From Methanobacteriota archaeon (GTDB lineage Archaea > Thermoplasmatota > Poseidoniia > Poseidoniales > Poseidoniaceae), in assembly GCA_009937025.1 (NCBI GenBank), contig JAACDG010000171.1:1-32843 (forward strand): a stretch of DNA of 32,843 nucleotides. The letters are read 5' to 3'. The notes under the pieces are model-generated. The model made no database searches and was not told the origin of the DNA. It saw only the letters and a program-made list of their open reading frames with translations. The number at the start of each line of letters is the position of its first letter. Positions within the stretch are counted from its first letter, which is position 1. Position numbers and translations under genes: made by a program. This document shows positions 1 to 31,201 of this stretch, one piece after another.

Positions 1-3000
1 AACCCAACAACGAATGTCGGATATGACCCAGTTCTAACTGGAACACAAACCACGCCTACACCTTACTATTTCGCTGTTAACGATGTCCTGGATGCAGGAG
101 ATGACAAAAAGTTGACTGTGTTAACAACCGATGTCCACGCTGGAAGCTACTACAACCCGAACAGCAACCAATACCTCGACCGTCAATTCACACACTTTGA
201 CGGAAGCGATGAATTCTACTTTGAATTCGACACTTCATCATGTGGGACTGGAAGCAACTCTTGCTGGTACACTTCTTCCTACTACTTCTACAACAACTGG
301 GTCATGCAACACACTACCGTTGCTGGCTCTGGATACAACGGAATGGCCTCGTCTTCGCAACGCTCGAACCTCGATGAGTTGCACCGAAGCGATGGTGGAT
401 ACCTCACCACCGCTGCTGATGACGGCCCTGGAATGAACTTGCTCTACCTCTACGACTCTGGCGAAGATGCATTCGCTATGGTTGGTATCGGTAGTTCACC
501 TTCGATCAGTGAGAAGTTGTCCGGCGGTTCATCTGCTACAAATTCCTACGGATATGGATACACCAAGTCGTTCAAGATTACTCTTGGCTCCGACTACGGT
601 GGACAAATGGGTAAGTTCTCATTCGGTAACGCTACTGGCGGTGCTGGAACCAATGCTAACAGACTTTGCGTAACCTCCAACGGGTTCACCTACTTCATGC
701 GAAGTCCATACAGCAGCCGAGACCAGTGCTCTGGAGCATACTACTACGGTGGAGCATACTCTGGTTCAACCAGCTATGCTTGGGCAGGATGGGCTCTCGG
801 AATGGGATACTACGGTCGAATGGCAGCATCTGGCGATGTTACCTACAAGGTCGGAGGCGTTGCACCAACACCTGACACCTTCAGTCCTGACATCACGCAC
901 GCTGCTCTTGCAGATTCGCACAGCAAGTCTCGAACAATCTCCGCATCAATCTCTGATGCTGGTGACCCACCGAGTGGATTGAACGTCAGCACAACTGCTG
1001 GTGTCGGTCCTACAATGTATTACCGTGTCACACCTGATGGCGGTAGTGCAGGTTCATGGACTTCTGAAGTCATGTCTCCAGGAACAGGAACAACACGCGC
1101 TGAGTGTGTTCTTTCGATCTGTTCTTGGTCTGCTGATATCGATGACCTCGAACGTGGAGACTCTGTCGAATACTACATGACAGCTCAAGACGTTTCGACT
1201 GTTTCCTCTGGAATCAACACAGAAACAACCTCAACAGAATCTTTCTCTGTCGGCGATCCAAACAAGATGTTTGTCGTCGAATGGAGAGACATGCAGTACA
1301 CAAACAGTGCTGACCGTTGTTCTTACCAAGCAGTCTTCTATGACGTTACAAACGAAATCGAATTCAAATACGATGACGCTTGTACCAACTCATACGATGC
1401 AGCAACAGTTGGATTCATGGATCAAACCCGAACAAAGGGTCAAACAATCCGTCATTCAACAAGTACCCAGTACATTACCGGAACAAACCCACACACCAAC
1501 AACTACCGTATCTCTACGGACAGTGGCGATGGTGCTTGGGAATCCTTTGACCGTGGAATGACTGGATTGGTTAACGCTGATGCTTCCGCAATTATAGGCT
1601 CATCTGGTGGTACACCATCTGGTTACTACTGTGCTTCGTCCTGGTACTGGAACACATGGAAATCAAAGTGTGCTGATAACATTGCAATGCCTGAAGGTTT
1701 CAACTTTACCTACTTTGGTACAGACTACAACCATACAGACAGCAATGACCGTATCCACCTTGGTCGACACGGAAACATGCACTTTATCGACAACGGTGCT
1801 ACATCAATCGTGCGAAGTATGACCACTTGGTATGGAAACATGCCTCAGTTGCCATACTCTTCGAGCAGCTTTGCTCGAGCAGGACTGATTGCTCCTTACT
1901 GGTCATACTACGGACCATACTACTGCTACCAAAGCAGTAATGCTGATTGTGGTGTATACTACCGAACCATGCCTTTCGAAGGTAAGGGAACGGATGTTAC
2001 CTCTGACATTACTCAAGATACAACTTGGGATTTGACAGACAGCCCAATCCGCATTAACCCGAGCAGCGATTATCTCACGATTTCCGCTGATTTGACCATT
2101 GAAGCAGGAACTGTCATCCAAGTCGGTGCTGGCAAGGGAATCTCCTTTGACGGTGCTTGCGACCAAATGACCATCAATGGTAACAGTACTGACCACGTTC
2201 TTTTCGAAGGACAAAGTGGCGCAGACTGGATTGGAATGGCATTCACAGCTGCTTGTTCAACAGGCACTGATGACCGCCACGTCTTCAGCTATGTTGATTT
2301 CAAGAACACTTCTGATGCTGCAATTGCTGCAGGTTCTCGCCACGGCTCGAACCCATCCAGCAACGGAAACGTTGGAAACTTCACAATGGATCACGTAACC
2401 TTCACCAATGTCGGTTCCGCATTCTCTCACGGAAGTGGACAAGGCACAGTTGTGTCGATGAACGAATTCGACGTGAATGGAGCAGATGGCTCATGTTTCA
2501 ACTTTGCTGAAAACTCTGTAGTTTCATTGACAGAGGGTACCATGGAGAACTGTAACACTGACGGTGGCGCCGCTGATGGTGCAATCGTTAACGTCGCAGG
2601 TTCGACAACTGGTTCTCTCTTCCTTGAGAACACAACAATTACCAACGCATACGTCAACTTGATTGATGTTGATTTGGAAATGGTTACAGTTTCAAACGTT
2701 ACTGCTACTGCAACATCAGCACAATCTGGTGATGCAATCGGTTCCGCTGCTGGTGCAGGTAGTGAAGTTGTTTTGAACAACTTCGATACTGATGACTATG
2801 CTTCGGTTTCTATTGATGCAATGAGTGTCGTAATGTTGACAACCGTCGACTTCGGCACAGCAGCTATGTCCTTCTACCCAGGTGGTAGTTCGGCATCTTC
2901 TGCAGCAGGTGCTTCTGGAGACAATGCCGTCTTTGACGATGTCACTGGTGGCAGTATGATGATGCGCAACCTTCAACCTGGAACATTTGACGATGTGTCC

Positions 3001-6000
3001 GTTGGAGACTTGGGAATCTCAGGAACTCCAGCAACATCCACAGTGCTCAACATCAACAACCTCGATGCAGAAGTTGTTACACTATCTGGCTGTGGCTGGA
3101 ATGTTATCGCTGATAGCATGGATGCAGAACGTCTGTCCTCGAATGGATGTTCCGCTGCTCAAAACACAATTGTTGTGTCTGACTCAACAATCACCCACAC
3201 AGATTCTACCCATTCTGCGTTCTTTGCACGATATACTGACCTCACCATTGGTGAAACTGCAGTTACTTCAACGACAGCAGGATCTGGAACCTACCTCGCA
3301 GAAACATCTACCAACTCGGATATTCGACTTATCGAAGTAACTCAAGACGGCAATGATTGTGCAGATACAGCAGGTGCAACTGGAGACTGTGATGTTGATG
3401 TCGGGTCTTCGACTTCTGAAGTTTGGTATGGTGGATTGGCAACAGTCCGCACCTACCGAGTTGCATTGGTCGGTGGAAGCCCAACGAACATCTACAAGGG
3501 TGGGCACACAGTTACCGCAGCAGTAGTTGACGGTTCCAGCTCGGAATTATTCGAAGTTGGAAGTCACGTTACAGATACAACACCAGGAACTACACTTGGT
3601 TCAACCAATGTTTGGGTTATTACAGGTGACGAATCTGGAAACTCCTACGGCGACCACAACCTTCGTGCATTCGGACCTGCTGGTCAGAATGAAACAATGA
3701 CTGGCGATTCATGGTATCCTACTGCAGGATTTACCATTGGAAGTAGCATTGACCTCTTGCTCGAACCAGCACCTGTTGACTTCGACCAAGCTGGCATGGA
3801 CTGTGCTTGGATGGACGCATACGTCGACCCTAACAACGGCGCATCGCTACCAACCAACGGTACCACAGCATCTGGACACACAATCTTTGAGTTCGATGGA
3901 ACACCAATGACCCTTTCCGCAGACCTCAACCTTGACGGTTGTAAGATGATCTTGAAGGGTTCATCCTTGAAGGTGAAGAGCACTGCTACATCAAGCCCAG
4001 TTCTCACCTTGAGCAACGGTGGCTCGATTGCCGTTACTGTTTCACCAGACACTGGTGCAGTTGGTTCAATTCGAGCAATCTCCAGTTCATACGGTCTTCA
4101 CTTGGACATCGTAAGTGGTTCCCTCATCCTTGATGGTGGAACTCTCCGTGATGTCGCTCAAGACACTTCAACTGGTGCTGCTCTAATGATTGGCGACGGT
4201 GCAACATTGCAAATGATGGACGGTGCAACAATCTACGGTTCAGCAGCAAACAGTGATAGCATGGCTACTGTGAAGGTTGATGGTGGAACTGTCAACATCG
4301 CAGATTCTTCAATCATCAACAATGGACAAACTGGAACGGCTCTTTGGGTCGAAGCAGCAGGTGGTTCAATTGACAACATTGTTGTCAAGAACGCAGCTGT
4401 TGGTATACAAGCCTACAACGGAGCTCCTCAAATTGATGGATTCACAGCGACCGACAACGTCGTTGGTGTAGATGTCTACGGTGGTATGTCTCTACCTACC
4501 CTTTACCGTAGTACTCTGCTCAGTGGACAAAGCACTGGCTGGACAACATACAAGATTGACTTGTCGACCTACTTGGCAAACGATTACCTCCAAGTTGGAT
4601 GGAACAGTATCTACGGTGGCGGAAACGCTCACCCAACATACAACTATGCTACAAGCAAATACTACATGATTACCGACCGATACAACATTGAATTGGAAGA
4701 TGATGCAGGAAACGCTTGGAACATTACTGATTCTGACGACCTTGGTTACTATCCATACAGTGCTGCTGACCCAGCCTCTGGCGATGGAACACACGCTACT
4801 TACACAACCGGTGCATCTGGTGGTGTCCCAAGTTGGAATTGTAACAGCTATGGATACAGCTATGGTCCGAACTACCCATCCTCGTTTGATGGATACTTCT
4901 ACTACATCTGGCAATCAATGGCAGGAACAAACCCAGGATACCCTGGTTACTACTCGGCTCCTGCTCAGTTTGGTTTCGATTGGGAAAACATCGATGGCGT
5001 TAGTCCAACTGGCTCCTATGCTTACTACCCATACCACTACTGGGGCTACTACTACACCTCCTACCACGGTGGACAAGGTGTCTACAAGCCTCCTGAAGGA
5101 TACGCTGGTTCTTACAACGTCTGTCTTGATTATGCTTACTCATACTACATGAGTGCTGGACAAGGTGCACGTTTGACTATGCCTATGATTGATGTATCTG
5201 CATCGAACATCTCGAAGGTCTCGTTGTATATTGACGTCCTTCACAACCGTGCAGACAACTTCCAAGACCGTTTGGAATTCGTTGCTCGTTCGAGCAACTC
5301 CGTAACGGACCTTATCGACGCTTCATATGTCCGTGAATCTGGAACTCCGCTCTTCAAGGACGGAATCATCACCGGTGCTGACACCGGTGTTGTTGTAGGT
5401 GGCGCTTTCGCAGCTGCTCACTTCCAAGACATCACAGTGACCAACCCTACCAATTCTGGTATGGAAGTCTCAGGACAAGTTGCTTCAACTGTTGATGGAT
5501 TCGATGTAACTGGTGGCGACTATGGTGTCCTCGTTGGCAACTCAGCATCTGGTTCATTGGACCTTGAAAACATTGCTCTTGATGGTCAAAACAATGCTGG
5601 TGTTTACTATGCAAAGGACATCACAGGCACTATGTCAGGTTCTGTAGTAAACAGTGCAGGCGCTGCTTTCGAGTATGGTCAAAACACCGGTAATGATGTT
5701 ATATTTGACGGAATTTCGATCTCTTCGAACGCTGTCGGTATTGAAACTTCAGGTGATGGTGATATCACTATGACTGATGTTACCATGGGTAACACCAAGG
5801 ATGTTGTTATCAACAGTGCAGCGAATGTGGACTTCATTGAAGGAACCGTTGACTCATCAAGTGTTGATGTTCTTGGAACTGGTATGTTCACACGCATGCG
5901 TCAACTCGATGTCACACTGACTGCTGATGGTGCTGCTGTTACCGGCGCAACTGTCACATTGGTTGATGGAGATGGTGCATCTGCTGGAAATGGAATTACT

Positions 6001-9000
6001 GATTCATCCGGTATTGCTCAAGACCTCACATACGTAACTGCAACCGTTGACTCAACTGGTTTGAACACACCTTCATTGGCAGGATACGAAGTAATGAGTG
6101 TCGCAGAAGTTGAATACTACTACACATCTTCTTCAGACAACACTGCTGACTTCCGATATGCATCTCAAGGAGTAACTTTGACAGATGCAAGTGGAAACGC
6201 AGAAACTGTTGCTTTGACGACTCAGATCACTGAGCGTGTTTGCTGGTATTCAACCAACACTGCATACACAACTGTCTCGCCTTGTAAAGGAACGTTCTCA
6301 ACATCGGGTACACGAAATCTCGATGATGGAAACGGTGGAACAATCAACGAGTATGGATACTTTGCTGGTTTGACAACGAGTCAATCCAACAAGGTCATTA
6401 TGCTTGACACGCCTTACATGTATCTGAAGACAAACCAAGATTATGACTTCAATGGCTCAACGCTTTTGTCAACAGGTGCGTATGATTACTTTAACACACA
6501 ACGTTGGTACAGTCAATTCCCATACGGTGCAGGTGTCTACATGAATGATGCATCTGTATATGGTGTGGCATCTGATTCATCTGATGGAAGCATGTATGGT
6601 GTTGAAATTGGATACTACGGTTCCCCAATCACAAATATTGTTGCAAACAACACAGTGTTCTCGAACGTTGCTAAGATTGAAGCAACAAACGGTTACAAGT
6701 ATTCCAACCGATATTGGGAAATTGAAGATGTCTCAATTACGAACTCTTCTATCTCTCACTTCCAGGGATACCAACAATTGAACAACGCTATCCAATACAC
6801 AGACATCTGTCTAGTGCTTGGTGGCGGTGACGGCGCAGTCGTGAGTGGCAACACTTTCAATGACTGTGGTGTTGGTGTTATGCTACAACGTTCAGCATAC
6901 TACAACTACCATACAGCTGATGAGTGGGGTGCAGATAACGCAACAATCTCCAACAACGTGTTCAACGATGGTGGAGAAATTGCAGATATTTGGCTCTACA
7001 GCAACGGATACTCTGATGATGCTGTTATCACTGGTAACACAATCAACAGTGGCTCTGCTGCAGTTGCTGCAATTGGTGTCTACAACGGTCAGCACAAACG
7101 AATGACCATTTCGGACAATACAATCAACGCTGGAACTGATGGAATATATGTCAGCAACGGTGTCGATTACCACATCACAGGCAACACCATCAACGGTGCT
7201 GGCGATGCTGCATACGCAGGAATGTCACTTGTTGGTGGATACGGTGATGTCGATAACAACACACTCGTCGACGCAGACGGTGGATTGATCCTCGACAGTG
7301 CTTCTGCACCACCTGCTCCGACAACATCTCTGTGCTCAATTGGACGATACTCCTACAGCTACGGACCTGCTACATGCACCGTCAACCTCGCTGCTGGAAA
7401 GACAATGACTGTTAACATTGAAACTGACAGCTGGGGATACGAAGCGAGTATCACCCTCTCGAAGCCTGATGGAACAACACAAAGTTGGCCTACTTGGACC
7501 TTCAACAGTAACAGTGAATACACCTTGGGAACATACACTGACTCCGGAAACTACACTCTGACTCTCAGAGATTCCTATGGAGACGGTGGAACCAATGTGT
7601 TCATGGTCGAAGGTGGCGCAGCAGGCGGATATTCCGGACCAATGATTGCTGATAACTCGATAACTTCATCTCCAGGTCGAACTGCTCCTTCAGCAGTCGG
7701 AGTGGGGTTCGAAGATTGTTCGAGTGTCTCGATTAACTCTGCTCGTAACACTGTTACATTGTCTGACAATGCAATGGTTATCAGTAACTGTGATGTTTCT
7801 GACACATCCTCTGTCCTTCAAGGACAAGGGGATTCAACAACAGTCGGAATTGATGCTGACGATCCTAACGGTGACCTCTTGACTCTTACAGGAACCACCA
7901 TTGCAGGATTCGCTACAGGTGTTGAAAAGACCAGTGGAGAACTCACATTGACCGGTGATGCATCAATTTCTGGTGATGATTACGGTGCCTATGTCGATGA
8001 TGCTACTGTGGTTGCTATCAATGCAGCAGTTAACGGAGGCTCAACTGGAACAGGTCTACACGTCGTCGACAGCGATGATGTCTGGGTCTATCCAATGAAC
8101 GCTTCTGGACTCGTTGGTATGTATGTCGAGAACTCTCCATTCCGTTGGGATGGCGGTACATCGACAGCAGACACAACACTCGAAGCTGTTGAATCAATCG
8201 GGTCTGTTGAAAACATGACCTGGTCTACTTCAACTGTTCAGATTGATGCTGGAAGTAACGCATACGTAACTTCGATTGGTAACACAATTACTGCTTCGAA
8301 ACTCAATGTTGCATCTTCTGCAACCATTGACGAGGCTAACTTGTTTACAATGGGTTCAACCCACTTGACCGCTGCACCTTCGAATGAAGTTGCAATGTTG
8401 ATTCAATCAACTGACGGAGCACGTGCATCTTACGTCTCAACCAGTTTCCAACCGGAAGTCATGGTCGTTGACGGCGATGACAGTGATTGGAACGGTGGTA
8501 ACGCCCTCAACCCATCTGGCTATGCAATGCCAGGTGTCATGAGCGGTGATGCAACCAACGACATGATGGTTACTTACATTGAAGGTGATGACCTCTACAT
8601 CGGTTTGACCGGTGAAGACCTCACTGCAAGCGATGTTCTCATCTACCTCAGCGTCGATGGCAGTGGAAGCAGCACCGGATACAACCTCGGTGGTGCACAC
8701 ACTTTGCCATTCCAAGCCAACTACGTGCTTTGGGCTGACAGTGATTCGTCCTTTGACTTGTATAGTTACGGTTTCCTTGGATGGGGCCCAACAACACTCA
8801 GCTCTGCGAATGTTGATGTTGCTTCTTCAAGCACCTTGACTGAAATATCCATCCCATTCTCACGAATTGGTGGAACACCAAGTCAGATTGATATTGTTGC
8901 AATCGTTCAAGGAGAGACTACTGCTGATGTCAGCACAGTCCACCCAACACAAACCATTGACTCTGTAAACACTTTGCAGTCGTTCTCTGAATACATGACC

Positions 9001-11727
9001 GTTGAGCTCACGCACGACGACCTTTCAGATGGTGCTATTGCAGACGAAGTTCTTGTCTACCGATCATACAAGGGTTCCAACACTCCAAGTGTTGCTAAGA
9101 ACTACGATGTCATGATTAAGACAGAAGCAGACTGTGAATACGATTGGGCTACTGCAACAGACTTGTCTCTTGCTACCAACGTTGCAATCAACCTCAATAT
9201 GGCTCGTGCATGTCCTGAAATATTGTCAACACTTGCTGATATTACTGTTACGGAAGATTCTGCAGCATACACATTCAGCCTAACAAACTTGGTTGACGAT
9301 GTTCAAGACCTTGAAGCAGACCTTACTTGGGCTTCTTCTGATAGCAACTTGGTTGCCTTTGACGACAACGATGTAGTTGCATGGAATCAAAATGGTCAAA
9401 CAATGACCATTACGCCTCTTGCTGACCAATTTGGAACACTTGAATATGACTTTGTAGTTACTGACAGCCACGGCTTGACTGACTCTCAGAGCATCACATT
9501 CGAAGTAACCAACGTTAACGATGCACCAGTGATTTGTAACGTCCAGGAAGTTGATTGCATGCCAATCATCTCGACTGACCAACTCGCTGATGGAACTCCT
9601 GTGAACAACATTCTCGCAGAAGGATTTGGTTCTTGGACCAAGTTCCTCGGTGATGTGTCGAACGCTTCGAGTTCTTACATCCGAGACATGGCAAACGAAC
9701 AATCACCTGACCGCCAATCCTACGATTGGAGTGCAGCTGTTGACTCGTCCTGTGTAGCATTCGGTGTTGAAGTGGACGCATTGAACAACCTTGTCATTAC
9801 TGAGAACACAGCAAATGAGAAGGGTGGAATGTGTACCATCACACTTGACTTGTCTGATAACGGTAACGAGAACACAGATGCAACTTCATTCGTTGTCGAC
9901 TTCTCAGTCGCACCAGTGAACGACGCTCCAGTGATCTCCTTGCAAGATGCGAACGGTCAAAACTTGTTGTTGAACACAGCAGGCGACCGAGCAACAGGTG
10001 AAGGTGAATACATCAGTATGACTGAAGACGATACCAATGCTGACAACCTCACTTGGGACCTTCTACCATTGATGAGTGATATTGACCACGATGTTCCAAC
10101 AGACCACACATGGACTGTTGAACCGACCAGTCAGTGCACATACACCAACTACTTCACAACTGCAATCGTTGGCACAGACCTCGTGTTTACCCTCATCCCA
10201 GATGCAACCACAAACGGTTACGATTGGGAAGTTGACTACATGAACGACAACGGTATCCACCAATTGCGACCAAATGGACAGACATTCTGTGCAATCAACT
10301 TGGTTCTCAAGGATACTGCTACTGCACCATCACATACACCTAACTACGATAACCAAGTTATGCCTATTGCTGATTACCAGCAAGGAACTGACGACGTAAT
10401 CATGTATGTTACTGTAGAACGTGTTGCAGAGAATGTTGCTGATTATTCGCTTGACGATGTTTCTGGTATTAACTTCAACGGAATTACCAACATCATGACT
10501 GGCACATATATTCCTGTTTCAGTGAATATCGATGCTGGTGGCGATGAAGGACCATACAACTACGACCACATGCTCGCAGTAACCTTCCACACGGACGGAC
10601 ACTCTGAAGCAGAGACGACCAAATACTACAATGTCCCAGATTACGGAACAAGCATCACTGTTAACGAAGAAATCTTCATGACAAAGGATACGACAAAGGT
10701 CGAAGTTTCAATGGATGTTCTAACATGCCTTGATGAAGTATGCGACTTGACCGTTCCTGCAAGTGAGCGATTCCAAGCAGATGACCCAACGTCCCACCGC
10801 TCGAACAGCGGTGGTTCACAAGGCTCTGATTGGTCTGCTCCTGGTCAATACGGACAGAGTTCTTCACAGACCTCTGAACGCCGACCAATGCTTGAAGACA
10901 GTTACTGGTGTAACAACCGCCTAACAACCCTCGACTTGGATACTGCTGAAGCAAGTTCCGACTGGGGTAAGTGCAATGAATTTGCTGCAGGTTCAGAATC
11001 GTTCGGAGCTACCGACCAACCTCTGCCTGCTGTTGTCCGAACCATCGGTGCAAATTCAGTGCCTTCATTCGCACCAAGCATTGTTGTTGTCAGCCTAACA
11101 GGCCTCTTTGTCAGCGCTCTTGCCTTCTCCAGCCGCCGTGCTGAAGATGAGGAAGAAGTTACAGAGAACCTCGAAGATGATGACATGGCAGTGAGCCCAG
11201 TTATTGCTACCATCTTGATGGTCGCAATCACTGTTGTTCTCTCTGGTGTGATCTATGTTTGGGCAAGTAGTCTTGCTGATACCGATGTCAAGGGTGTTCC
11301 TCGTATCACCTTCGATATGGAAGATGTCAACGGTTTCGATGTTGATGATGGCCACTGGCGAATCAGTGTCCAGTCCTCTGAAACTGACTTGGCAACTCAA
11401 GCGGTTCAGGTTCGAGTGCAATATGTAGACGGTGCTGGTGCTCCACAGGTTGATACTTACAATCTGGCGGATACCAATGGCGTGTATGGATTCAATCCGG
11501 CAAACAGCGACTCTATGGTTACGTTTGTAGATCAAGTTAACACCGAGGGTGAAGATAAAGTTTCAACCTTCAACACTGGTGATGAAATCTTTGTGCGAAC
11601 GCACCTTGCAGATGGAACACCTTTGGAAGATGTGAAGATAACTCTTATCTACAGTCCTGGAACTGTTGGTGATTCAGGTTCGCTATTGCGAACTTGGAAC
11701 GGATTGTCATACAACCTTGACGCTTGA
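1..11727 (+). CDS. Giant modular cell-surface protein (beta-helix/cadherin-like) with C-terminal type IV pilin domain; 5' partial
   Basis: The frame is open from base 1 to the TGA at 11725-11727, giving at least 3908 residues; the true start and signal peptide lie left of the window, and the TTG at 112 is only an internal codon. By nucleotide position I read: Tyr/Cys-rich sandwich-like domains (1-1985); a first parallel beta-helix whose opening 'LTIEAGTVIQVGAGKGISF' is typical of such folds (about 1990-3330); an Ig-like module (3400-3780); a second beta-helix (3800-5890) interrupted by an aromatic-rich sandwich (4480-5330); a carboxypeptidase-regulatory-like Ig module (5900-6200); a third beta-helix (6300-8400) with a small Cys-containing sandwich inside it (7330-7620); a CBM9/DOMON-like domain opening 'VVDGDDSDWNGG' (8461-8940); cadherin-like repeats ending in 'VNDAPVI' (9220-10440); and a last Ig-like module. 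A transmembrane helix (11077-11130), an acidic loop and a pilin-like module (11185-11727) follow. The role is probably adhesion or surface-layer-associated, exported by Sec. Architecture is well supported, function is inferred. Confidence 0.9.
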   Translation, partial: NPTTNVGYDPVLTGTQTTPTPYYFAVNDVLDAGDDKKLTVLTTDVHAGSYYNPNSNQYLDRQFTHFDGSDEFYFEFDTSSCGTGSNSCWYTSSYYFYNNWVMQHTTVAGSGYNGMASSSQRSNLDELHRSDGGYLTTAADDGPGMNLLYLYDSGEDAFAMVGIGSSPSISEKLSGGSSATNSYGYGYTKSFKITLGSDYGGQMGKFSFGNATGGAGTNANRLCVTSNGFTYFMRSPYSSRDQCSGAYYYGGAYSGSTSYAWAGWALGMGYYGRMAASGDVTYKVGGVAPTPDTFSPDITHAALADSHSKSRTISASISDAGDPPSGLNVSTTAGVGPTMYYRVTPDGGSAGSWTSEVMSPGTGTTRAECVLSICSWSADIDDLERGDSVEYYMTAQDVSTVSSGINTETTSTESFSVGDPNKMFVVEWRDMQYTNSADRCSYQAVFYDVTNEIEFKYDDACTNSYDAATVGFMDQTRTKGQTIRHSTSTQYITGTNPHTNNYRISTDSGDGAWESFDRGMTGLVNADASAIIGSSGGTPSGYYCASSWYWNTWKSKCADNIAMPEGFNFTYFGTDYNHTDSNDRIHLGRHGNMHFIDNGATSIVRSMTTWYGNMPQLPYSSSSFARAGLIAPYWSYYGPYYCYQSSNADCGVYYRTMPFEGKGTDVTSDITQDTTWDLTDSPIRINPSSDYLTISADLTIEAGTVIQVGAGKGISFDGACDQMTINGNSTDHVLFEGQSGADWIGMAFTAACSTGTDDRHVFSYVDFKNTSDAAIAAGSRHGSNPSSNGNVGNFTMDHVTFTNVGSAFSHGSGQGTVVSMNEFDVNGADGSCFNFAENSVVSLTEGTMENCNTDGGAADGAIVNVAGSTTGSLFLENTTITNAYVNLIDVDLEMVTVSNVTATATSAQSGDAIGSAAGAGSEVVLNNFDTDDYASVSIDAMSVVMLTTVDFGTAAMSFYPGGSSASSAAGASGDNAVFDDVTGGSMMMRNLQPGTFDDVSVGDLGISGTPATSTVLNINNLDAEVVTLSGCGWNVIADSMDAERLSSNGCSAAQNTIVVSDSTITHTDSTHSAFFARYTDLTIGETAVTSTTAGSGTYLAETSTNSDIRLIEVTQDGNDCADTAGATGDCDVDVGSSTSEVWYGGLATVRTYRVALVGGSPTNIYKGGHTVTAAVVDGSSSELFEVGSHVTDTTPGTTLGSTNVWVITGDESGNSYGDHNLRAFGPAGQNETMTGDSWYPTAGFTIGSSIDLLLEPAPVDFDQAGMDCAWMDAYVDPNNGASLPTNGTTASGHTIFEFDGTPMTLSADLNLDGCKMILKGSSLKVKSTATSSPVLTLSNGGSIAVTVSPDTGAVGSIRAISSSYGLHLDIVSGSLILDGGTLRDVAQDTSTGAALMIGDGATLQMMDGATIYGSAANSDSMATVKVDGGTVNIADSSIINNGQTGTALWVEAAGGSIDNIVVKNAAVGIQAYNGAPQIDGFTATDNVVGVDVYGGMSLPTLYRSTLLSGQSTGWTTYKIDLSTYLANDYLQVGWNSIYGGGNAHPTYNYATSKYYMITDRYNIELEDDAGNAWNITDSDDLGYYPYSAADPASGDGTHATYTTGASGGVPSWNCNSYGYSYGPNYPSSFDGYFYYIWQSMAGTNPGYPGYYSAPAQFGFDWENIDGVSPTGSYAYYPYHYWGYYYTSYHGGQGVYKPPEGYAGSYNVCLDYAYSYYMSAGQGARLTMPMIDVSASNISKVSLYIDVLHNRADNFQDRLEFVARSSNSVTDLIDASYVRESGTPLFKDGIITGADTGVVVGGAFAAAHFQDITVTNPTNSGMEVSGQVASTVDGFDVTGGDYGVLVGNSASGSLDLENIALDGQNNAGVYYAKDITGTMSGSVVNSAGAAFEYGQNTGNDVIFDGISISSNAVGIETSGDGDITMTDVTMGNTKDVVINSAANVDFIEGTVDSSSVDVLGTGMFTRMRQLDVTLTADGAAVTGATVTLVDGDGASAGNGITDSSGIAQDLTYVTATVDSTGLNTPSLAGYEVMSVAEVEYYYTSSSDNTADFRYASQGVTLTDASGNAETVALTTQITERVCWYSTNTAYTTVSPCKGTFSTSGTRNLDDGNGGTINEYGYFAGLTTSQSNKVIMLDTPYMYLKTNQDYDFNGSTLLSTGAYDYFNTQRWYSQFPYGAGVYMNDASVYGVASDSSDGSMYGVEIGYYGSPITNIVANNTVFSNVAKIEATNGYKYSNRYWEIEDVSITNSSISHFQGYQQLNNAIQYTDICLVLGGGDGAVVSGNTFNDCGVGVMLQRSAYYNYHTADEWGADNATISNNVFNDGGEIADIWLYSNGYSDDAVITGNTINSGSAAVAAIGVYNGQHKRMTISDNTINAGTDGIYVSNGVDYHITGNTINGAGDAAYAGMSLVGGYGDVDNNTLVDADGGLILDSASAPPAPTTSLCSIGRYSYSYGPATCTVNLAAGKTMTVNIETDSWGYEASITLSKPDGTTQSWPTWTFNSNSEYTLGTYTDSGNYTLTLRDSYGDGGTNVFMVEGGAAGGYSGPMIADNSITSSPGRTAPSAVGVGFEDCSSVSINSARNTVTLSDNAMVISNCDVSDTSSVLQGQGDSTTVGIDADDPNGDLLTLTGTTIAGFATGVEKTSGELTLTGDASISGDDYGAYVDDATVVAINAAVNGGSTGTGLHVVDSDDVWVYPMNASGLVGMYVENSPFRWDGGTSTADTTLEAVESIGSVENMTWSTSTVQIDAGSNAYVTSIGNTITASKLNVASSATIDEANLFTMGSTHLTAAPSNEVAMLIQSTDGARASYVSTSFQPEVMVVDGDDSDWNGGNALNPSGYAMPGVMSGDATNDMMVTYIEGDDLYIGLTGEDLTASDVLIYLSVDGSGSSTGYNLGGAHTLPFQANYVLWADSDSSFDLYSYGFLGWGPTTLSSANVDVASSSTLTEISIPFSRIGGTPSQIDIVAIVQGETTADVSTVHPTQTIDSVNTLQSFSEYMTVELTHDDLSDGAIADEVLVYRSYKGSNTPSVAKNYDVMIKTEADCEYDWATATDLSLATNVAINLNMARACPEILSTLADITVTEDSAAYTFSLTNLVDDVQDLEADLTWASSDSNLVAFDDNDVVAWNQNGQTMTITPLADQFGTLEYDFVVTDSHGLTDSQSITFEVTNVNDAPVICNVQEVDCMPIISTDQLADGTPVNNILAEGFGSWTKFLGDVSNASSSYIRDMANEQSPDRQSYDWSAAVDSSCVAFGVEVDALNNLVITENTANEKGGMCTITLDLSDNGNENTDATSFVVDFSVAPVNDAPVISLQDANGQNLLLNTAGDRATGEGEYISMTEDDTNADNLTWDLLPLMSDIDHDVPTDHTWTVEPTSQCTYTNYFTTAIVGTDLVFTLIPDATTNGYDWEVDYMNDNGIHQLRPNGQTFCAINLVLKDTATAPSHTPNYDNQVMPIADYQQGTDDVIMYVTVERVAENVADYSLDDVSGINFNGITNIMTGTYIPVSVNIDAGGDEGPYNYDHMLAVTFHTDGHSEAETTKYYNVPDYGTSITVNEEIFMTKDTTKVEVSMDVLTCLDEVCDLTVPASERFQADDPTSHRSNSGGSQGSDWSAPGQYGQSSSQTSERRPMLEDSYWCNNRLTTLDLDTAEASSDWGKCNEFAAGSESFGATDQPLPAVVRTIGANSVPSFAPSIVVVSLTGLFVSALAFSSRRAEDEEEVTENLEDDDMAVSPVIATILMVAITVVLSGVIYVWASSLADTDVKGVPRITFDMEDVNGFDVDDGHWRISVQSSETDLATQAVQVRVQYVDGAGAPQVDTYNLADTNGVYGFNPANSDSMVTFVDQVNTEGEDKVSTFNTGDEIFVRTHLADGTPLEDVKITLIYSPGTVGDSGSLLRTWNGLSYNLDA
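11185..11727 (+). other. Type IV pilin-like module (archaeal Pilin_N/DUF1628 type) fused in frame to the giant surface protein
   Basis: The last 180 residues begin Met-Ala and continue 'VSPVIATILMVAITVVLSGV', the hallmark of archaeal type IV pilins: a short polar leader, a class III signal cleavage point before VSP, then a long hydrophobic H-domain. About 150 residues of beta-rich sequence follow, so the module has the length of a complete pilin. It is preceded by the helix at 11077-11130, two arginines and an acidic loop, which would put the prepilin-peptidase site on the cytoplasmic face. No stop codon separates it from the upstream protein, and no strong ribosome binding site precedes the ATG at 11185. 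It may be cut out by a PibD/EppA-type peptidase, stay fused as a double anchor, or be translated separately from the internal ATG. Confidence 0.85.
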
Positions 11728-11758
11728 GCGTAATCGTTCTGACGAAATCGGACGCATT

Positions 11759-11785
11759 GGGGAGGGACACATGTCCCTCCCCTTT
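11759..11785 (+). terminator. GC-rich hairpin just after the giant gene
   Basis: A perfect 10 bp stem (11759-11768 with 11773-11782) with a 4-base loop ACAT starts 31 bases after the stop codon and is followed only by TTT. It could act as a transcription terminator or mRNA 3'-end stabiliser. The short T-run makes it a weak archaeal terminator by itself; longer T-tracts lie about 100 bases downstream. Confidence 0.5.
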
Positions 11786-11793
11786 GTCTCCCG

Positions 11794-11915
11794 CATCCCT
11801 GTAATGGGATGACTGTCTCCTTGGAGACAGAGAGCCACCCGATCGCAGGGGGTTACCGAAAGGAGCCCCCTGCCTTCGGACCCTTTTTTCTTTTGACTTC
11901 GGTCAATTTTGTTTT
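11794..11915 (+). other. Cluster of four further hairpins with T-tracts; possible structured RNA or composite terminator
   Basis: Four hairpins follow one another. The first is catccc/gggatg (11794-11811, 6-base loop). The second is ctgtctc/gagacag (11813-11830) closed by CUUG. The third has an 8 bp stem gcaggggg/ccccctgc (11843-11871), an internal loop and an apical CC-GAAA-GG. The fourth is ttgac/gtcaa (11893-11906) closed by UUCG. A T-rich tract (11884-11894) and TTTTGTTTT (11907-11915) follow the last two. This may be a 3' structured end of the giant transcript, an independent small RNA, or a 5' leader element of the HAD phosphatase gene. I do not recognise a known riboswitch or ncRNA class. 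Confidence 0.5.
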
Positions 11916-31071: not shown

Positions 31072-31201
31072 TGGTGCCGGGAGCGGGGCTTGAACCCGCG
31101 ACCTTCGGATGTCTCAGACACCGCAAGGGGTTTGCACGTCATACGATTGCCTTGTAGGCTGCCCTATGAGTCCGACGCGCCACCAACTACGCCACCCCGG
31201 C
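31072..31201 (-). tRNA. Elongator tRNA-Met (CAU) with a 54-base intron
   Basis: Reading down the minus strand from 31201, acceptor GCCGGGG pairs with TCCCGGC (one G-T pair), followed by discriminator A (31075) and an encoded CCA (31074-31072). The D-arm is GCG-CGC, the anticodon stem TCGGA/TCCGA, and the T-arm GCGGG-TTCAAGC-CCCGC. The anticodon CAT is at 31168-31166. An intron (31164-31111) sits at the canonical 37/38 position; removing it gives a 73-base body plus CCA. The acceptor start and the lack of initiator features make it the elongator, which commonly has an intron in Euryarchaeota. Confidence 0.93.
31111..31164 (-). other. tRNA intron with bulge-helix-bulge splice motif
   Basis: The exon-intron junctions form the standard archaeal endonuclease target: a 4 bp central helix CTCA (31170-31167) with TGAG, a 3-base bulge TA|G on the 5' side and AC|A on the 3' side, and an inner helix GGCA/TGTC. 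The cut after the second base of each bulge gives exactly the 37/38 junction. Inside the intron, GCCT-ACA-AGGC and GCAA-ACCCC-TTGC can form small hairpins. Confidence 0.88.

Follow-up and report, generated by a model that had tools for sequence, protein, structure and literature searches.

A giant Poseidoniales surface protein fused in frame to a type IV pilin at a predicted prepilin-peptidase site

The window analyzed here, a stretch of 32,843 nucleotides that makes up contig JAACDG010000171.1 (assembly GCA_009937025.1; C107 in our numbering) of a 1.88-Mb Poseidoniales genome, raises the question of what a cell makes from a gene in which a giant surface adhesin runs without a stop into a type IV pilin. 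The gene is an open reading frame (ORF) on the forward strand, open from the first base of the contig to a TGA at 11725–11727, which encodes 3908 residues and represents the C-terminal part of a 4500–5500-residue surface protein of Poseidoniales (Marine Group II), the N terminus of which is missing at the contig edge. The fusion is real, and is neither a chance event nor an assembly artefact, because the same junction is open in 107 of 194 Poseidoniales genomes. The reading that we favor, and consider reasonably probable, is that the protein is a precursor nicked by a prepilin peptidase into two products, a pilin and a giant adhesin that stays anchored in the membrane.

Architecture and distribution of the fusion

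Full-length homologues comprise 4512–5507 residues and have an N-terminal signal helix. By hydropathy, most of them contain only three strongly hydrophobic segments: the signal helix, a transmembrane helix, TM1, and the helix of the pilin. The parts that can be placed in the window are as follows.

1–11727, + strand: giant surface protein and type IV pilin in one frame, truncated at the 5′ end by the contig edge
10429–10803, + strand: last extracellular domain of the adhesin, β-rich, residues 3477–3601; in relatives the pilin head is always next unless the contig ends
11023–11037, + strand: LPxVV motif, at which the adhesin side ends; all 95 junctions have the Pro, and the hairpin-less paralogues (see below) keep the motif
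11056–11133, + strand: TM1, SVPSFAPSIVVVSLTGLFVSALAFSS, assigned by hydropathy; V, S, F, P, and G do not vary among 95 sequences
11134–11139, + strand: Arg-Arg after TM1
11140–11187, + strand: acidic linker of 16 residues, predicted to be cytoplasmic, AEDEEEVTENLEDDDM
11188–11193, + strand: predicted prepilin-peptidase site, Ala(−1) (11188–11190) and Val(+1), with the cut between 11190 and 11191
11191–11277, + strand: N-terminal helix of the type IV pilin, VSPVIATILMVAITVVLSGVIYVWASSLA (PF07790, TIGR02537), with a ratio of nonsynonymous to synonymous polymorphism (pN/pS) of 0.009
11290–11724, + strand: pilin head domain, β-rich, residues 3764–3908

The pilin part scores above the curated cut-offs of both PF07790 (33.8 bits; cut-off 25.2) and TIGR02537 (38.8; cut-off 20). 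Directly after Ala(−1), at 11191, starts VSPVIATILMVAITVVLSGVIYVW, so that the protein contains a class III motif, with Gly/Ala at −1 followed by the hydrophobic helix of a pilin. The short hydrophilic N-terminal leader of archaeal prepilins is missing, and more than 3700 residues and a transmembrane helix precede the site instead; the fusion is therefore not classed as an ordinary prepilin. An NCBIfam search found no C-terminal sorting signal before the pilin, and neither the part of the protein in the window nor the full-length relative L061 has a Pfam match to a DUF2341 or PilY domain.

The distribution of the fusion was examined in 194 genomes of the order Poseidoniales, representing 21 genera, with the last 253 residues as the query. 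Matches are found in 123 genomes. As counted from query coverage, one open frame spans the junction in 107 of the 194, and these come from 14 of the 21 genera and from both families; the remaining matching genomes have a fragment or a standalone pilin only. The initial annotation had described adhesin and pilin as joined in one frame without a stop, which is borne out by these genomes, and had stated that it would be contradicted if all homologues carried a stop between the two parts; in the Poseidoniales genomes sampled, no member with such a stop was found. TGA and TAG codons inside some matches were considered as gene separators and rejected, being the natural 3′ stops of shorter C termini. 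An assembly error, or a missed stop or frameshift, might be suspected in a metagenome-assembled genome (MAG) fragmented into 186 contigs, but the junction recurs in all of these genomes, the single-contig genome G002 among them, and this explanation is rejected as having next to no probability.

A junction profile searched against 390 genomes of the phylum finds the fused form in Poseidoniales only; elsewhere, the matches listed are all short standalone pilins. The N-terminal domain of the adhesin is likewise confined to the genera that have the fusion. No adhesin without a pilin was found, and those examined ORFs that stop short of the pilin run into a contig end: the ORF of L220, for example, meets the contig end inside TM1. 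In G179, the gene is split into two frames.

In some genomes, a second copy of the giant gene is present (L218 in G102:C73, L065/L066 in G145, and L067 in G010:C20). Upstream of the giant gene in the relatives read (for example, L055:3092–6151 and L061:1189–4443), outside the range of the window, is a conserved neighbor of ~1014–1084 residues with a signal peptide and a C-terminal transmembrane anchor, possibly a partner surface protein.

The junction and its predicted processing

Related genomes share the ending of helix, acidic loop, and VSPVI that the initial annotation proposed to look for, and 95 distinct junctions were available for statistics. Ala(−1) is present in all 95, and positions +1 to +9 (VSPVIATIL) are invariant. 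Position −3 is Asp or Glu in 94 and position −4 is Asp in 87, and position −2 is occupied by twelve different residues (entropy 3.0 bits). The linker is 14–20 residues long in relatives and is variable yet acidic, with a mean net charge of approximately −9. The annotated order of helix, arginines, and acidic loop holds, with TM1 placed at 11056–11133 rather than 11077–11130; the Met that was included before Ala is found in only 20 of the 95 junctions and is not a conserved part of the layout. Standalone pilins encoded in the genome of the window share the start of the pilin part after a short leader, as in the leader MKNENKNDEA followed directly by VSPVIATILMVAITVVL.

Across 135 close pairs, the pilin helix has a pN/pS of 0.009, as listed above, against 0.096 for TM1 and 0.207 for the linker. 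The value for the linker indicates a translated protein under selection. A helix kept merely as a membrane anchor should resemble TM1; the pilin helix is tenfold more constrained, which argues that it is kept as a pilin.

The linker also bears on the possibility that the pilin is made, additionally or mainly, from an internal start such as the ATG at 11185, in which case the fusion would be a translational overlap of two genes. ATG occurs in 69 of the 95 linkers, and Shine-Dalgarno-like 5-mers lie ≤60 nucleotides upstream in 20. However, 19 linkers have no ATG, GTG, or TTG and seven more have only GTG or TTG, the position of Met varies, and the codon for Val(+1) is GTG in 49 junctions and another codon in 46. 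In addition, a stop between the parts is never seen, and the codons of the linker are under selection at the protein level. Internal initiation as a general mechanism is rejected on account of the 19 linkers that lack a start codon, and the internal start near 11100–11185 suggested earlier is not conserved; as the source of the pilin, we regard it as very unlikely.

In the favored mechanism, the gene would make one precursor, and the chain would be exported with the 4000-residue adhesin part outside. TM1 would then pass inward, leaving the Arg-Arg pair and the acidic loop in the cytoplasm, and the pilin helix would pass back out, placing the pilin head outside. An A24 prepilin peptidase is proposed to cut after Ala(−1) on the cytoplasmic face, which would free the N terminus of the pilin for assembly by a non-archaellar type IV machine, Tad-like or PilB3-like. 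The giant adhesin would stay anchored by TM1 with an acidic tail, and one pilin would be made per adhesin. The nicked chains may remain associated non-covalently, which would put the adhesin at the base of the pilus or on the pilus.

The same topology bears on a further possibility, in which the protein is not cut and serves as a pilus subunit, displaying the giant adhesin covalently on the filament. Bacterial modular pilins with adhesive domains exist (PMC9934059, PMC10191384), but their extra domain comes after the pilin, and pilins are processed before assembly (PMC10191384). In the Poseidoniales protein, TM1 and a loop of 14–20 residues would tether the N terminus of the pilin helix in the cytoplasm, which is topologically unfavorable, and we consider such a subunit most improbable.

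Hairpin-less paralogues, pilus machinery, and the uncut alternative

Three paralogues, L159, L160, and L162, join the last domain of the adhesin (residues 3477–3601, 33–56% identity) to the pilin head (residues 3764–3907, 37–52%) through a spacer of ~20–30 residues. The LPxVV end is retained on one flank of this spacer and a (V/I)PRF motif on the other, and what is missing is exactly the hairpin, that is, TM1, the linker, and the pilin helix. The three sequences form one clade (support 0.85) nested inside the fused sequences, and the hairpin was therefore lost. A loss with no disruption is consistent with a hairpin whose flanks both lie outside. When used alone as the query, the last adhesin domain is found in 107 genomes, always in a fused ORF or in L159, L160, or L162. 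As judged from these sequences, it is probable that the last domain of the adhesin and the pilin head together make up a single extracellular module, and because of this the two chains may stay associated after the nick. More tentatively, and with the balance of probability against it, the product could be a two-chain pilus-adhesin, in which the hairpin loop is nicked and adhesin and pilin are locked together through their complementary extracellular domains, a double-anchored protein thus becoming a pilus-associated adhesin. In this way, a 0.5-MDa adhesin would be loaded onto a type IV filament or at its base, a process for which no counterpart has been described.

The initial annotation had suggested looking near the gene for a pilus ATPase and a peptidase; the genome contains pilus ATPases and a peptidase homologue. 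Searches with PF01478 give next to no matches in the order, and the weak ones are membrane proteins of 327–340 residues that have both catalytic motifs and PF06847. A profile built from these putative A24 peptidases finds a copy in 134 of 194 genomes and in 118 of 123 genomes of the fusion genera. In the peptidase set (A1), D26 and GGAD (D160) are invariant, and the homologue in the genome of the window (L109, C160:10248–11228) carries AAWMDHKERR and HGGAD, thus providing both the first catalytic Asp and the GxGD-type motif.

In the same genome, C126 carries an archaellum operon, C34 encodes a Tad-like ATPase and two T2SSF proteins, and C106 encodes a PilB3-like ATPase and two T2SSF-type proteins. 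The Tad-like ATPase is present in 118 of 123 genomes of the fusion genera and in none of the 71 others; at the level of genera, which is the fairer test, it is present in 14 of 14 with the fusion and in 0 of 7 without. The PilB3-like class is also present in fusion genera, and both machines are candidate partners of the pilin. Dependence of the fusion on the archaellum is rejected by a double dissociation, since the fusion genera g16 and g21 lack archaellin and the non-fusion genera g13 and g20 have it. Elsewhere in the genome of the window (C173, L113:6226–9518) are two adjacent large pilin-like genes, with VSEVLGVIMM in a protein of 361 residues and VSAAVATVLL in one of 736, possibly minor pilins.

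Several observations weigh against the favored reading, in which the cut between Ala(−1) and Val(+1) is a predicted one. A charged residue at −2 has been described as critical for the recognition of archaeal prepilins (PMC4371748), and it is present in only 23 of the 95 members, with Met at this position in the window; it is also absent from some standalone pilins of the order, which may mean that this divergent peptidase recognizes its cleavage site in another way. The peptidase homologue in the genome of the window reaches the cut-off of PF06847 (37.0 bits; cut-off 29.9), not that of PF01478, which is reached by the homologue L070 (38.3; cut-off 26.5). The co-occurrence of fusion and machinery may reflect few loss events, as the genera that lack the fusion are possibly relatives of one another. 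In the window and in the relatives read, no pilus gene adjoins the fusion gene. AlphaFold2 models of 253 and 432 residues, computed with 6 sequences, have predicted local distance difference test values of 41 and 38; they were read for helices and strands only and are too poor for testing domain packing.

Some of these points are shared by the main rival explanation, according to which the pilin-like end is never cut and acts as a second membrane anchor, the transmembrane hairpin holding the adhesin and the pilin head serving as its last extracellular domain. An uncut double anchor would accommodate the mostly absent charge at −2 and the distance from pilus genes, and, as the hairpin-less paralogues show, the two extracellular halves are able to function together as a single module with another C-terminal anchor. 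It has no need, however, for an Ala(−1) kept in every junction, for an invariant VSPVIATIL, or for a pN/pS tenfold below that of TM1, and it leaves the co-occurrence of the peptidase and cognate pilus systems aside. We regard it as rather unlikely. Among the three options of the initial annotation, a polyprotein, a double-anchored adhesin, and a pilus subunit carrying the adhesin, the cleaved polyprotein is thus favored, because of the invariant Ala(−1)/VSPVIATIL, the peptidase homologue encoded in the genome, and a pilin helix that is far more constrained than TM1; the covalent filament subunit is the option that fares poorly.

Relation to known systems and neighboring observations

Like PilB and PilC, which are modular type IV pilins of Streptococcus sanguinis (PMC9934059, PMC10191384), the fusion combines a pilin with an adhesive module in a single product that has a class III cleavage motif. 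The differences are that PilB and PilC have an N-terminal class III signal with the module after the pilin, whereas the order is reversed in Poseidoniales, where the giant adhesin and its own transmembrane helix come first, and that the cut would separate two chains rather than trim a short leader. With the archaeal PilA-type pilins that contain Pilin_N/DUF1628 (PF07790, TIGR02537), such as PilA1–6 of Haloferax volcanii (PMC4371748), the fusion shares the (A)/VSPVI start, the hydrophobic helix, and the small residue at −1; it differs from them in the >3700 residues and transmembrane helix that replace the short leader and in a −2 position that is usually uncharged. Adhesins of archaeal type IV pilus loci, including DUF2341 proteins that have been compared with PilY1 (PMC4858521), are likewise large surface proteins with a presumed role alongside a type IV pilus, but they are separate genes within pilus loci, whereas the fusion is one gene away from such loci and has no Pfam match to DUF2341 or PilY.

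Rinke et al. reported the distribution of the archaellum in Poseidoniales and proposed adhesion by the archaellum (PMC6461757); the passages found there make no mention of the fusion protein. The archaellum operon and the fusion occur in the same organisms and would share a peptidase, and they differ in that the fusion is found in genera without archaellin and is absent from genera that have it. In the open-access literature that was searched, we found neither an adhesin that ends in a pilin nor a description of pilin polyproteins or of pilins from Poseidoniales.

Should the cleavage be real, class III processing would extend beyond the trimming of short leaders to the splitting of a giant polyprotein at an internal membrane loop. 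Poseidoniales, which rank among the most abundant archaea in the surface waters of the ocean, would then gain a defined particle-attachment system apart from the archaellum, and the attachment of these uncultured cells would become a directly testable question. Searches for pilins that demand an N-terminal signal miss a conserved class.

An unusual standalone archaeal pilin is encoded at L164:2095–2883 (G147:C11) and also at L230:7595–8383. It has the VSPVIATILMV start with Cys at −1, and its head contains an in-frame insert of a near-perfect ubiquitin (PF00240, 110 bits). The GC content and third-position GC content of the insert match the rest of the gene, and the flanking genes on the 167-kb contig are archaeal. 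In the same genus, g9, pilins of 689–701 residues (L228:2730–4799, L229:1197–3302) have a large inserted domain at about the same place in the head and are encoded beside a plain pilin gene.

Downstream of the fusion gene, one further feature was assigned.

11759–11782, + strand: terminator-like hairpin 3′ of the fusion gene, with further GC-rich hairpins to ~11890

The region between the fusion gene and a HAD-type gene (11755–11890) contains at least three stacked GC-rich hairpins that end in poly-T; it has no Rfam match, and the hairpin pattern is kept in relatives with changed sequence. Farther along the window, at 31075–31201 on the − strand, a tRNA match spans ~127 nucleotides against a model of 71 positions and is probably an intron-containing tRNA.

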